Origin: Candidatus Falkowbacteria bacterium | Lineage (GTDB): Bacteria; Patescibacteriota; Patescibacteriia; Patescibacteriales; Patescibacteriaceae | NCBI GenBank assembly: GCA_016699775.1 | Contig: CP065010.1 | Span: 496,001 to 560,000 of the forward strand | Direction of reading: 5' to 3' | DNA: 64,000 nt | Shown here: positions 7,684 through 47,939 of the stretch, piece by piece | Layout: the number at the start of each line of letters is the position of its first letter | Position numbering within the stretch: position 1 is the stretch's first letter | Position numbers and translations under genes: made by a program | Notes under the pieces: model-generated | Seen by the model: the letters and a program-made list of their open reading frames with translations, nothing else | The model's database searches: none | What the model was told of the DNA's origin: nothing

Positions 7684-7869
7684 ATGGATAAACTTATTAA
7701 TTACTTTAAGGCCTCAATTGCTGAAATACGTAAAGTTACCTGGCCAACAAAGAAAGAGACATATAATTACACTATTTTGGTGGTAGCTGTTAGCTTGGCA
7801 ACGGCCGTCTTTCTTGGTGGTCTTGACTTAGGTTTTAATGAAATTTTGGAATTAGTTCTTAATCGATAA
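7684..7869 (+). CDS. secE: Preprotein translocase subunit SecE
   Basis: The 61-residue protein is the short, single-span form of SecE. It has the conserved amphipathic helix and cytoplasmic motif (AEIRKVTWPTKKET) followed by one membrane span (about 28-48). SecE clamps the SecY channel; secY is at 59137-60405. The gene is three bases before nusG, the classic secE-nusG pair. In many bacteria tRNA-Trp and rpmG precede secE; in this genome those two lie together elsewhere, at 44421-44703. Confidence 0.95.
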   Translation: MDKLINYFKASIAEIRKVTWPTKKETYNYTILVVAVSLATAVFLGGLDLGFNEILELVLNR

Positions 7870-7872
7870 TAT

Positions 7873-8418
7873 ATGGCAAAACAAACCCTAAACCAAGGAC
7901 GACGCTGGTATGTACTACATACCTATTCAGGCTATGAAGAAAATGTCGCTCAAAATCTCCGTCAAAGAGTAGACTCTATGGATATGGATGACAAGATTTT
8001 TAATATCTTAATTCCAAAAGAAAAAAAGATTAAAATCCATAATGGTAAACGAAAAGTGATTGAAGAAAAAATATTCCCTGGTTATATTTTAGTAGAAATG
8101 ATTGTAACTGATGATTCTTGGTATGCAGTGCGGAATACCCCAAATGTTACTGGATTTATTGGTACCGGAAATATTCCAACTCCAGTTAGTGAAGAAGAAA
8201 TCAAAGATCTTCAAAAACGAATGGGTGTTGAAGAACCGAAGTTTCAAATTGATGTATCTGTCGGCTCCCCTGTTCGAATTGTTGATGGACCTTTCAAGAA
8301 CCTTGAAGGAAAAATTATTGAGGTTGATGATGGAAAGGGAAAAATTAAAGTTTTGATTTCAATGTTTGGTCGTGAAACACCAGTTGAATTAGACTTTTTA
8401 CAGATTAAGAAACTATAA
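7873..8418 (+). CDS. nusG: Transcription termination/antitermination protein NusG
   Basis: NusG, 181 residues and full length. The N-terminal NGN domain (RRWYVLHTYSGYEENVAQNL ... IFPGYILVEM) is followed by a linker and a C-terminal KOW domain (about 125-181) with VRIVDGPFKNLEGKI. It binds RNA polymerase and couples it to the ribosome or other factors. It overlaps no neighbour and begins 3 bases after secE. An unusual palindromic repeat lies between it and rplK. Confidence 0.97.
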   Translation: MAKQTLNQGRRWYVLHTYSGYEENVAQNLRQRVDSMDMDDKIFNILIPKEKKIKIHNGKRKVIEEKIFPGYILVEMIVTDDSWYAVRNTPNVTGFIGTGNIPTPVSEEEIKDLQKRMGVEEPKFQIDVSVGSPVRIVDGPFKNLEGKIIEVDDGKGKIKVLISMFGRETPVELDFLQIKKL

Positions 8419-44420: not shown

Positions 44421-44494
44421 TGGCACGGGATGAGGGAATCGAACCCCCGCTAGAGGTTTTGGAGACCCCTGTACTACCACTATACGAATCCCGC
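44421..44494 (-). tRNA. tRNA-Trp (anticodon CCA)
   Basis: A cloverleaf of 74 bases. The acceptor stem pairs GCGGGAT with ATCCCGT; the anticodon loop CTCCAAA holds CCA for UGG. The T arm is GGGGGTTCGATTCCCTC. A 3' CCA is encoded after discriminator G. It is downstream of rpmG, an arrangement that often precedes secE; here a terminator and a glycosyltransferase gene follow instead. Confidence 0.95.
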
Positions 44495-44550
44495 ATATGT
44501 TTGCTAACTGCAAACAATAATCGATAGATCCGACACAGCCCGGAGGCAGC

Positions 44551-44703
44551 TTACTTTGTTTCTCGATGCAGAGTGTGTTTGCGAGCTTTTTTCGAAAACA
44601 ACATTAATTCAAGACGACCTTTTAAAGTCTTCTTGTTTTTATGTGTTCGACGAATCTCACCGGTCTCGGTGCATTGCATCTTAATCATGTTATCTTGAGG
44701 CAT
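44551..44703 (-). CDS. rpmG: 50S ribosomal protein L33
   Basis: The 50-residue product begins MPQDNMIKMQCTETGEIRR and has the L33 core HKNKKTLKGRLELMLFSKKARKHTLHRETK. It lacks the paired zinc-binding cysteines of the C+ form, having a single Cys, so it is the zinc-free type. It lies between tRNA-Tyr and tRNA-Trp on the same strand, as in tRNA-rpmG-secE groups of other bacteria, but secE is at 7684 here. The gap upstream holds an 8-base tandem repeat. Confidence 0.93.
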   Translation of the reverse strand: MPQDNMIKMQCTETGEIRRTHKNKKTLKGRLELMLFSKKARKHTLHRETK

Positions 44704-44793: not shown

Positions 44794-44879
44794 TGGTGGG
44801 CCGGGTAGGATTCGAACCTACGAAGGCGAAAGCCAACAGATTTACAGTCTGCCCCGGTTGACCGCTTCGGTACCGACCC
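44794..44879 (-). tRNA. tRNA-Tyr (anticodon GTA)
   Basis: An 86-base tRNA with a long variable arm (class II), as for bacterial tRNA-Tyr. The acceptor stem pairs GGGTCGG with CCGGCCC; the anticodon loop CTGTAAA holds GTA. The T arm is GTAGGTTCGAATCCTAC. Discriminator A and CCA are encoded. It lies upstream of rpmG and was probably once next to tRNA-Thr, now 3 kb away. Confidence 0.95.
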
Positions 44880-44970
44880 TTACCTAATTAAAAAGAGGCT
44901 TTTCAAGCCTTAAAAATTATAACAGGATTATAACAGAAATAAAAGTTTTTTGCAAGAGATGGTGAAAACT

Positions 44971-44990
44971 CTGAGCCGTTGACCGGGATT
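44971..44990 (-). pseudogene. Fragment of the tRNA-Thr 3' end
   Basis: Twenty bases (CTGAGCCGTTGACCGGGATT on the plus strand) are identical to the 3' end of the intact tRNA-Thr at 47867-47939, in the same orientation. Beyond that the similarity decays (CGGACGTGAGACC against GAACCGGTGACC). There is no matching 5' half. It lies just after the EEP-family gene and looks like the oldest of three tRNA-Thr-derived scars. Confidence 0.7.
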
Positions 44991-45053
44991 CGGACGTGAG
45001 ACCCTATTATTAGCATTATTTATTCATTCATATATTATATAAAAACCATATCT

Positions 45054-45800
45054 TTAATCAAAATCTAGATACATAGCTAAATGATCAGAAACCTCATCAG
45101 GCATGATCTTAAAATCGTTCATTGTTATCCCGGGGCTTAGGAATGTATAATCCGCAAAACGAGAAGAAGTCTTAGTATACATACTTGATCGCGTAGTAGA
45201 AATATTAAATTCTTTGATCAGGTTGCGTAATCCTACCTCTTCAATCATTTGTAGGCTCTTAGTATCGGGTTCTAAATTAAAATCTCCGCAGAGAATAAAT
45301 GGATCAGAAATACTTTTAAGAAATTTAATAATATTTTCTGATTGAATAATACGCTCCGGAAAATCCTCTTTACTAATACCATTCCATAAACCATGAAAAT
45401 TCAAAATAACTCTGACGCCATTTGGCGTTTCTATTTTTAGATATTGCAGATTCCGGGCATGATTTATTGCTTTGTCATCATCAAAGATATTTTCTCGCTC
45501 CTTATAAACAAAAATATCCCCTTCTTCCAAAACTTTAATATCTTTTTTAAGAAAGATTGCATCACCAAAGAAACCCATGTAATGAGGGTAAAAAAAGTTG
45601 GTATGAGTAGGAAGAATATTTTTTACACTTGTAACTAACCTTGGATCAATCCCCTCACCCCATAATGGTGCATGGTCTTCTCCACCTTCCCACATTTCTT
45701 GAAGACAAAAAATATCGACCCCCTGATTCTTTTTAAAGAAATTATATAGTTTTTCTTTTCCTCCTCTGCCCGCCCAGGTATTTAAGCAAATAAGTTTCAT
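45054..45800 (-). CDS. Endonuclease/exonuclease/phosphatase (EEP) family protein
   Basis: A 248-residue protein of the EEP (DNase I-like) fold. Metal and catalytic motifs are in order: LNTWAG (Asn), FCLQEMWEG (Glu), NFHGLWNG (His), ILCGDFNLEPDTKSL (Asp/Asn) and EVSDHLAMYLDF (Asp-His). The fold serves nucleases, phosphodiesterases and phosphatases, and the substrate cannot be told. No signal peptide is present, so it is cytoplasmic. It lies 8 bases after a CYTH-protein gene inside the region bracketed by tRNA-Thr fragments. Confidence 0.85.
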   Translation of the reverse strand: MKLICLNTWAGRGGKEKLYNFFKKNQGVDIFCLQEMWEGGEDHAPLWGEGIDPRLVTSVKNILPTHTNFFYPHYMGFFGDAIFLKKDIKVLEEGDIFVYKERENIFDDDKAINHARNLQYLKIETPNGVRVILNFHGLWNGISKEDFPERIIQSENIIKFLKSISDPFILCGDFNLEPDTKSLQMIEEVGLRNLIKEFNISTTRSSMYTKTSSRFADYTFLSPGITMNDFKIMPDEVSDHLAMYLDFD

Positions 45801-45808
45801 AGAAGTAA

Positions 45809-46351
45809 TTATTGCTTTTTTTCTAACAACAAATAAGGATACCCTTTAAAATTACGTTCCAAATTACCACATTCTAATGCCATTAGAAATTGCATCATTT
45901 GGTCAGTTATTTCTTTTGGGTTTGCATCTTTACCTTTATATTCGATTTCAACAAACTCTCCCAGCTCTTTAACGCTATCTAAGGAAATTTCATAATCATT
46001 ATAATTCCAGGAACTTCGATTTTTATCAACTGTTATCAAATACTTAAAATTTAAAGCTTTAAAAATATTATTCATTTGTTCTAGGTTATCAATTGCTGAT
46101 TCGAATTCGTCAGCATAATTACTCTTTCCATCTTCCTCGTAATAATGTTTTTTATATGTAATAAAAAACTTGCCATTACTATTACGTAATCGTAACCATT
46201 CTTCTATAGGATTAAAATCTACAAAATTTCGATGAGCAGGAGTGTAGTATTCGTCTATTTGGTTATGAGTATACTTAAACTTACCTTTCTCTTCTAGAAA
46301 AGTTAGTAATGGTCTAATATTTTCAACTTTAACTTTAATTTCTATTTCCAT
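45809..46351 (-). CDS. CYTH-domain protein (class IV adenylate cyclase/thiamine triphosphatase-like)
   Basis: A 180-residue protein starting MEIEIKVKV, the ExExK motif of the CYTH superfamily, which binds triphosphates in a tunnel of acidic and basic side chains. WLRLRNSNGKFFITYKKH and EISLDSVKELGEFVEIEYKG are the other expected strands. Members include CyaB-type cyclases and triphosphatases; which applies is unknown. It lies between a truncated ASCH gene and the EEP gene, probably as one unit, in the tRNA-Thr-bounded accessory region. Confidence 0.85.
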   Translation of the reverse strand: MEIEIKVKVENIRPLLTFLEEKGKFKYTHNQIDEYYTPAHRNFVDFNPIEEWLRLRNSNGKFFITYKKHYYEEDGKSNYADEFESAIDNLEQMNNIFKALNFKYLITVDKNRSSWNYNDYEISLDSVKELGEFVEIEYKGKDANPKEITDQMMQFLMALECGNLERNFKGYPYLLLEKKQ

Positions 46352-46379
46352 AATTAATGAAGTGTAAACTTAATTATCT

Positions 46380-46514
46380 TTACAATACTCTATTAATAAA
46401 CTGCAGTTCATCGCCTTCTTTTAAATCTTTATCATCAAACAAACGCCATGTTGAATCTTTCTCACCTGAAAGTTTTAGTGGAACTAAATGGGGTTTAAAT
46501 TTTAATGTTTTCAT
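46380..46514 (-). pseudogene. Truncated ASCH-domain protein (44 residues)
   Basis: The frame starts MKTLKFKPHLVPLKLSGEKD and continues STWRLFDDKDLKEGDELQFINR before stopping after VL. This is the N-terminal part of an ASCH-domain protein (a Lys/Pro first strand, GEKxxTWR, DDKDL..GD), which is normally over 100 residues. The rest is missing and unrelated sequence follows, so the gene looks truncated. The lost part is downstream, towards the CYTH gene; the upstream side abuts a tRNA-Thr fragment at 46549-46606. Confidence 0.65.
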
Positions 46515-46548
46515 AATTTAAAATATTTCTTCTAAAAAACTTCGATAC

Positions 46549-46606
46549 TATAAAAAAATATCTGAGTCGTTAACCGGGATTGAACCGGTGACCTTCTCCT
46601 TACCAT
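46549..46606 (-). pseudogene. Partial tRNA-Thr copy (3' half plus flank)
   Basis: These 58 bases match 47851-47908 at 56 positions. The copy covers the tRNA-Thr 3' half from the anticodon loop to the 3' end and 16 bases beyond, including the A-rich flank. It stops abruptly inside the anticodon loop and is followed by unrelated sequence. The two differences break acceptor-stem pairs, and there is no 5' half. It has the form of an attachment-site copy left by integration at tRNA-Thr. From its end to 46817 I see no gene. Confidence 0.8.
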
Positions 46607-46817
46607 CTTTGGCTCCATCCTCCTCTTGTATAAAAACCTTTTAATCATTGACTAAAATCAGATTTTAACAACTCTAAAAAACTTAATAAGGTAGGCCTAC
46701 TCCGTATGCAACTTTTGTATGGTTACCAAAGTCTTTGAAAAGTAGTGTACTCTATTTAGTTAGTAAAAAATTATACATTATATTCTACTTTGAAAGGGTT
46801 TTCAAGATGGATATCTT

Positions 46818-47720
46818 CTAAAAATAAGGATTTTTACCAGGTGGGCAAACATTCTTAATTACTGTATTAGTTACAGTGTCATACATATCCTCTCTACCAT
46901 TAAAAAGCATTATAGTGCCTGTCTTAAACCCGATAAGGTTAGAAAATAATTCTTGCTTTTCAGTTGAGCTCCTGTGAGTAATAGCATCTTTAGGTAATGT
47001 ACATTCATTAAACATGCATTTTGTCGTATCTTCTGCTTTTGAGATATTATAAGTTTGAGTCTCAAAATTAAAATTTGTATCCTCTGGAAAAACTGGGTTG
47101 ATAGTTGTTCCTTCAACTTCAAATTTAGCAGGTTTACAATTTAGCAATGCATCGTTTATACATTCAATTGCGGCCAGAGAACTAGCTGGAACCTCATATG
47201 GTGGTTCAATCGTATTAAACGAAGACAAAAATTTTTCGTCTAGAGAGAAAAAAACATAATCTTTATAAGAAATAGATCCACATTCTGCTACAACTAAATT
47301 TTGAGAATTTGATTGATTGTTTTCAATTTCGCTATCTAATTTAGAAGTTTGTGTAATTGCATTGTCTCTCGAAATAGGATAATTATTTGTTTCATAGTCT
47401 GATTGTAAAGGAAAATTGTCCAAAGCTTTTTTTAATACGGGAATTGTACTGGTAGTAAAATATAAAATAAATACAATATACACAAGAACAGCTCCTATCC
47501 CCACACTGAATACTATCAATAATAGCTTTAAGTATAGTGATTTTTTACTTGAAGGCTCGATTTTAATAGCTTTTAACTCCTCCAAAGGAATAGAATTAAA
47601 TCCCTCATCAATCATTTCTTTTTTCCAGCCACTAGATAATAAGGCATTTTCTATATCTGCTCTCGTACAACCTTGATTCAAGGATTCTTTAATATAGGAA
47701 ACTAAGTTCTGATCAATCAT
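46818..47720 (-). CDS. Hypothetical membrane protein with UBA-like N-terminus
   Basis: A 300-residue protein of three parts. Residues 1-45 (LVSYIKESLNQGCTRADIENALLSSGWKKEMIDEGF) form a UBA-like three-helix motif that I associate with many Patescibacteria membrane proteins. A long span follows at about 62-87. The remaining 210 residues are outside the membrane, low in charge and contain seven or so Cys (for example CMFNEC, VCPP), suggesting disulfides. No known enzyme domain is seen. It is the sole gene between the intact tRNA-Thr and its 58-base partial copy. Confidence 0.7.
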   Translation of the reverse strand: MIDQNLVSYIKESLNQGCTRADIENALLSSGWKKEMIDEGFNSIPLEELKAIKIEPSSKKSLYLKLLLIVFSVGIGAVLVYIVFILYFTTSTIPVLKKALDNFPLQSDYETNNYPISRDNAITQTSKLDSEIENNQSNSQNLVVAECGSISYKDYVFFSLDEKFLSSFNTIEPPYEVPASSLAAIECINDALLNCKPAKFEVEGTTINPVFPEDTNFNFETQTYNISKAEDTTKCMFNECTLPKDAITHRSSTEKQELFSNLIGFKTGTIMLFNGREDMYDTVTNTVIKNVCPPGKNPYF

Positions 47721-47815
47721 AAGAATTTTCTAAATATTATACTATTTATAGTATACTCTGTTTTGAACACGGATTCAACAATTATAATTAATCAGATATT
47801 TTACATGAAGAATAG

Positions 47816-47842
47816 AAAAAAGCGGATTATTCTCCGCTTTTT
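47816..47842 (-). terminator. Terminator downstream of tRNA-Thr
   Basis: AAAAAAGCGGA pairs with TCCGCTTTTT around TTATTC, with U-tracts on both strands. It lies about 25 bases past the tRNA-Thr 3' end. The partial tRNA copy at 46549 lacks this element. Confidence 0.85.
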
Positions 47843-47866
47843 GTGAAAATTATAAAAAAATATCTG

Positions 47867-47939
47867 AGCCGTTGACCGGGATTGAACCGGTGACCTTCTC
47901 CTTACCATGGAGATGCTCTACCAGCTGAGCTACAACGGC
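47867..47939 (-). tRNA. tRNA-Thr (anticodon GGT)
   Basis: A complete 73-base cloverleaf. The acceptor stem pairs GCCGTTG with CAACGGC; D arm GCTCAGCTGGTAGAGC; anticodon stem TCTCC/GGAGA with loop ATGGTAA (anticodon GGT for ACC); T arm ACCGGTTCAATCCCGGT. The 3' CCA is not encoded (discriminator T, then CAG), unlike the Trp and Tyr genes here. Two partial copies of its 3' end lie downstream at 46549-46606 and 44971-44990. Confidence 0.95.

Follow-up and report, generated by a model that had tools for sequence, protein, structure and literature searches.

We analysed a 64 kb stretch of DNA (the window; 35% G+C) in which ARAGORN detects three tRNA genes, Trp, Tyr and Thr(GGT), all on the - strand. 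In the direction of transcription on that strand, an intact tRNA-Thr(GGT) gene is followed by an accessory stretch and then by tRNA-Tyr, rpmG and tRNA-Trp. Two partial copies of tRNA-Thr divide the accessory stretch into an inner interval, which holds a single near-orphan gene, and an outer interval, which holds a 44-codon ORF and genes for a CYTH-domain protein and an endonuclease/exonuclease/phosphatase (EEP) family protein. The spacings between the copies are 1,302 and 1,591 bases, and the intact gene lies ~2.9 kb from the outer copy. The features of the locus, in order of transcription, are:

47866-47939, - strand: intact tRNA-Thr, anticodon GGT, the presumed attachment gene (ARAGORN)
47817-47842, - strand: terminator-like hairpin downstream of the intact tRNA-Thr (consensus match only)
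46818-47720, - strand: gene for a near-orphan protein of 300 aa, probably a membrane protein
46549-46606, - strand: partial tRNA-Thr copy, 58 bases, 56/58 identical (repeat search)
46380-46514, - strand: 44-codon ORF (ORF listing; family unconfirmed)
45809-46351, - strand: CYTH-domain protein, class IV adenylate cyclase (CyaB) family (PF01928, TIGR00318)
45054-45800, - strand: EEP family protein (PF03372)
44971-45016, - strand: second partial tRNA-Thr copy, exact over 44971-44990 and then decayed (repeat search and alignment)
44955-44927: promoter-like site, 15 bases past the end of the short fragment (by consensus match only)
44794-44879, - strand: tRNA-Tyr, the next gene after the accessory stretch (ARAGORN)
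44551-44703, - strand: rpmG (PF00471)
44421-44494, - strand: tRNA-Trp (ARAGORN)

Terminator-like sites number five in the region against 1.9 expected in shuffles, and promoter-like sites are common (22 found vs 15.9 expected in shuffles). The genes secE, nusG, rpmG and tRNA-Trp are grouped together in many bacteria. Here the ORFs that resemble secE and nusG by eye (7684-8418) lie ~37 kb from rpmG and tRNA-Trp (44421-44703), and the region may therefore have been rearranged. Elsewhere in the window, a 102-aa ORF with a GIY-YIG nuclease domain (PF01541; 57077-57385, - strand) sits amid core genes.

The longer partial copy (46549-46606) pairs with 47851-47908 over 58 nucleotides, identical at 56 of 58 (97% in the repeat search) and differing only at positions 46567 and 46572. 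It runs from base 32 of the 73-base tRNA gene to the 3' end, continues through 16 flanking bases, and has the orientation of the intact gene, downstream of which it lies. Base 32 is the first base of the 7-base anticodon loop ATGGTAA, between the stem halves TCTCC and GGAGA. A 35-mer pattern allowing up to three mismatches finds both the intact gene and the 58-base copy, with no match in 100 shuffles. A preliminary description of this DNA had given the same position, identity and extent for this copy and had placed the intact gene and both partial copies in one orientation, as we find them.

The second copy is exact over 44971-44990 (20/20, or 21 bases if 44970 is counted), and the repeat search reports a third match in register at 44946-44990. 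In random sequence composed like the window, and with both strands counted, this exact 20-mer would be expected 1e-8 times. The exact block begins inside the T-loop. Onward from it, after one inserted base, 16 of 25 positions match and the similarity reaches the same base 32 boundary. An extension as good, taken as the best of three registers, was reached by 4 of 20,000 random window stretches, and its gapped score by 8 of 4,000. By this alignment the short copy appears to be a decayed homologue out to the anticodon-loop boundary, which is newly detected here; the earlier account of 20 matching bases followed by decay thus gains an end point at the same anticodon-loop base. That account had also called the fragment older. 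The fragment is indeed decayed, but decay gives no simple measure of its age, since both differences of the 58-mer from the intact gene lie in the part over which the short copy is exact. A perfect 20-mer in the short copy alongside changes in the 58-mer would be explained if every integration replaced the 3' half. Compared with the window by blastn, tRNA-Thr matches itself, 46568-46606, 44973-44990 and two further 10-mers at E 3.1, with no further fragment below E 3.

Diverged complete tRNA genes, which the preliminary description had named as the outcome that would speak against integration, were looked for, and neither fragment has a recognisable 5' half. When the DNA beyond the 58-base and short fragments is compared with the tRNA 5' half, 2,590 and 3,476 of 4,000 random stretches, respectively, score as well. 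A covariance model aligns a full tRNA to 46565-46637, but its score of 16.2 bits (E 1.5) is below the gathering score of 29. A decayed full-length tRNA gene is thus unsupported at either fragment.

The 300-aa protein of the inner interval has four relatives besides itself at E ≤ 0.01 among ~5.8 billion proteins, of which two are full-length relatives at 90% and the other two align over 29% and 19%, mainly within the first 44 residues. It has no Pfam family above cut-off (best E 0.092) and no NCBIfam family, and a long predicted helix (residues 59-101) suggests that it is probably membrane-bound. What had been described as an orphan membrane gene is therefore better called a near-orphan whose product is probably a membrane protein. 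In the outer interval, the CYTH protein matches PF01928 (E 3.3e-22) and TIGR00318 (91.8 bits, cut-off 57.95), the EEP protein matches PF03372 (E 2.3e-13), and both earlier family assignments stand. With 409 and 2,945 relatives at E ≤ 0.001, respectively, these two genes need not be imports. The relatives include a CYTH protein at 97% on a 33.7-kb contig and an EEP protein at 94% on two contigs, the longer of 71 kb; the two 90% relatives of the near-orphan protein lie on contigs of 1,829 and 1,317 bp. Of the 240 CYTH and EEP relatives listed, 15 have names that include an organism: 12 name Patescibacteria or groups within it, two read only "bacterium" and one is Bathyarchaeia. The names include Paceibacterota, Parcubacteria, Nealsonbacteria, Azambacteria and Ryanbacteria, which we take to be Patescibacteria groups, and the DNA itself we assign to a probable Patescibacterium. 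The 44-codon ORF (46380-46514) may be an eroded gene; its earlier ASCH label finds no support in Pfam or NCBIfam, and the truncation, like the family, is unconfirmed. Codon usage of the three accessory genes is native-like: 35, 44 and 52 of the 56 other window genes deviate more than the orphan, CYTH and EEP genes, respectively, and both codon usage and GC3 of all three fall inside the range of those 56.

Tyrosine-recombinase integration at tRNA-Thr is the best reading of the repeat anatomy, because the copies are 3' fragments in the same orientation, lie downstream of the intact gene, start in the anticodon loop and have no recognisable 5' halves. Passages of PMC4383910 treat partial 3' copies downstream of an intact tRNA as an accepted trace of such integration and the anticodon loop as one main crossover site; in the Islander set reported there, a 3' fragment is present in 3,760 of 3,919 islands and the site is anticodon-centred in 2,083. 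An excerpt of PMC9897764 likewise describes tRNA fragments left by integration. The near-orphan status of the inner gene and the possible erosion of the 44-codon ORF also speak for this reading. Two fragments suggest two integration events, and the reading that we favour, with reasonable though far from full confidence, is that at least two site-specific integrations took place at tRNA-Thr(GGT), one after the other, and that the 3-kb stretch is what erosion has left of them. Each incoming element would have brought a copy of the tRNA-Thr 3' half, and strand exchange by a tyrosine recombinase would have taken place in the anticodon loop. The element's 3' half would then have been joined to the 5' half in the chromosome, keeping the tRNA whole, and the 3' half that it displaced would have ended up downstream, at the far end of the element. 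The newer element would be the one adjoining the intact tRNA-Thr. Deletion would later have removed the integrases and most of the cargo, leaving the near-orphan gene in the inner interval and the short ORF, the CyaB-like CYTH gene and the EEP gene in the outer one, between tRNA-Thr and tRNA-Tyr genes that we infer were originally adjacent.

The preliminary description had put forward serial tyrosine-recombinase integration as a whole. The repeat anatomy fits integration, and the stacking of events is plausible, although it leans on the second fragment, the weaker of the two. Of the two events, the one marked by that fragment is the less certain, because its exact block starts in the T-loop, the other main crossover class, and because the only two changes in the 58-mer lie where the short copy is perfect. 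Counting against integration more generally are the perfect 20-mer in the supposedly oldest copy, the native-like codon usage, the many relatives of the CYTH and EEP proteins, the lack of an exact match to the attachment 33-mer or 21-mer in viral contigs and the lack of a visible integrase in the scanned part of the window.

The alternative that survives best, although we think it unlikely, is a single integration ending at 46549-46606. The copy at 44971 would then derive from a separate event with crossover in the T-loop, proposed because its exact block begins there, or from a chromosomal original of different sequence. Sites in the T-stem region are the other main Islander class (1,836 islands, in the consulted part of PMC4383910), and the similarity of the short copy drops abruptly, from 20/20 to 16/25. 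Against this, chance is an unlikely source of the decayed match that runs on to the anticodon-loop boundary (4/20,000; 8/4,000).

The earlier statement that no integrase is visible agrees with our scan of part of the window. No recombinase was seen among the Pfam matches (E ≤ 0.1 or E ≤ 0.01) of 27 of the 76 window ORFs of at least 100 aa; the other 49, outside the Pfam scan, are partly antisense frames and partly housekeeping genes recognised by eye. The three accessory genes and the 44-codon ORF match no recombinase family in Pfam or NCBIfam. The strict motif HxLRH, which would miss divergent integrases, has no match in the six frames of the window.

Searches for mobile or viral relatives gave little. 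In viral contigs, the attachment 33-mer and 21-mer have no exact match, and the 20-mer has five, all in one unrelated sequence context without tRNA-Thr. Pattern searches of IMG/VR matched one stretch with the single CYTH protein and 144, 33 and 70 with the CYTH, EEP and orphan alignments, respectively; with no confirmed relative among these pattern-matched stretches, a viral origin of the cargo was set aside. Annotated phages contain one CYTH match (29.8%) and none for the orphan, the EEP protein or the 44-aa ORF. The plasmid collection returned 17 records, and the 10 of them that are listed match only 58-79 bases at the tRNA. A scan of genome contigs with the neighbouring aldolase, using a single-protein pattern of a kind that reaches close relatives only, matched 33 stretches. 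One of these, on a Coriobacteriia contig where the neighbouring genes differ, codes for a relative (47%); a family search of that genome found no CYTH protein and is uninformative for the present locus.

A second alternative dispenses with an integrase at the locus: non-autonomous gene cassettes of 1.3-1.6 kb would have been added singly at tRNA-Thr, moved by a trans-acting integrase whose gene lies at another place in the genome or on a helper element. Both intervals are short (1,302 and 1,591 bases), with one to three genes each and no integrase seen. Published tRNA-linked islands start at 330 bp and 1 CDS according to sections of PMC10872708, and an excerpt of PMC7771536 reports small tRNA-linked cassettes in Ca. 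Actinomarinales. Eroded larger elements would look the same, however, and we rate these cassettes as improbable.

A tandem or illegitimate duplication that took in tRNA-Thr and its surroundings, with later deletions and no site-specific recombination, would sit well with the native codon usage of the three genes and with the copying of the 16 flanking bases. The DNA upstream of the two fragments also shows a weak similarity, which 19 of 3,000 random stretches equal and part of which is the end of the EEP gene; as a sign of shared upstream DNA it is too weak to use. Both fragments, however, appear to end at the same functional boundary with no recognisable 5' half, and a blastn comparison of the stretch with the window finds nothing besides the 58-base repeat at E ≤ 0.01. 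We consider duplication quite improbable. Least credible of all is an integron-like arrangement, with the tRNA gene as attachment site, by which a minimal-genome Patescibacterium would gain genes one by one, each on a non-autonomous cassette of 1-2 kb with tRNA-Thr 3' halves at its ends, and with the recombinase supplied in trans.

The eroded remnant of successive integrations that we prefer has counterparts among known systems. It resembles the tDNA islands of Islander, as presented in portions of PMC4383910, in its intact tRNA with a displaced 3' fragment downstream in the same orientation and in its anticodon-centred site. Tandem arrays are known there ("Tandems >= 2: 125" in a table). The present locus shows the displaced fragment that Islander looks for, whereas no integrase is found inside it (three genes, 44-codon ORF, HxLRH motif). 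Each interval is also shorter than the 2-kb length filter given in the same portions (1,302 and 1,591 bases), and Islander would therefore reject both.

Similar too are the flexible genomic islands (fGIs) of the streamlined bacteria Ca. Actinomarinales and Ca. Methylopumilus, where, as here, accessory genes lie beside a tRNA with direct repeats of part of that tRNA. In the accessible text of PMC7771536, fGI1 of Ca. Actinomarinales gains cassettes at tRNA genes and is likened to additive fGIs, and, apart from three insertion sequences and one prophage, no identifiable mobile genetic elements are said to occur in these genomes. The fGI-2 of Ca. Methylopumilus, as described in parts of PMC10872708, also resembles additive fGIs; it spans 330 bp-42 kb with 1-63 CDS, 79-80% of its proteins are of unknown function, and repeats of the final 20 tRNA-Lys bases stand ahead of it. 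These systems differ from the present locus in lineage (here probably Patescibacteria) and in their documented strain variation, and the tRNA here is tRNA-Thr; the present locus, too, has accessory genes flanked by directly repeated tRNA ends. Tycheposons, known to us through the same parts of PMC10872708, are likewise tRNA-linked and occur in streamlined genomes, but they measure 4-200 kb and those of Methylophilaceae carry the tyrosine recombinase xerD, whereas the stretch here is ~3 kb with none seen.

Gene addition at a tRNA in streamlined bacteria is thus not a new mode, contrary to the earlier suggestion of a notable mode of acquisition: small cassettes at tRNA genes with partial tRNA repeats are already described in the cited parts of PMC7771536 and PMC10872708, and the present locus is a small further case. 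In the open-access subset, the titles and abstract openings among the matches listed include none on such islands in Patescibacteria, which does not imply absence from print. If the integration reading is true, a known gene-acquisition mode of streamlined genomes extends to one more lineage, and tRNA-Thr is marked as an insertion site in what is probably a Patescibacterium. The exact sequence, which runs from the anticodon loop through the 3' end and on for 16 bases, would then serve as a probe for active elements or integrases in relatives.

Two further observations concern the near-orphan gene and its surroundings. A promoter-like site at 46805-46777 (- strand), matching 11 of 12 consensus positions, reads towards the 58-base fragment. 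A small RNA behind it was considered and rejected, with no Rfam match at gathering score and an ordinary folding energy (z -0.87, reached by 38 of 200 shuffles). For the 300-aa protein, the structure model (mean pLDDT 42.5) is confident only in an N-terminal three-helix module, residues 1-42. Two other proteins begin with stretches that share 84% and 82% identity with residues 1-44, whereas the rest of each shows little similarity to the 300-aa protein; the three thus carry a constant N-terminal module attached to C-terminal parts that differ.
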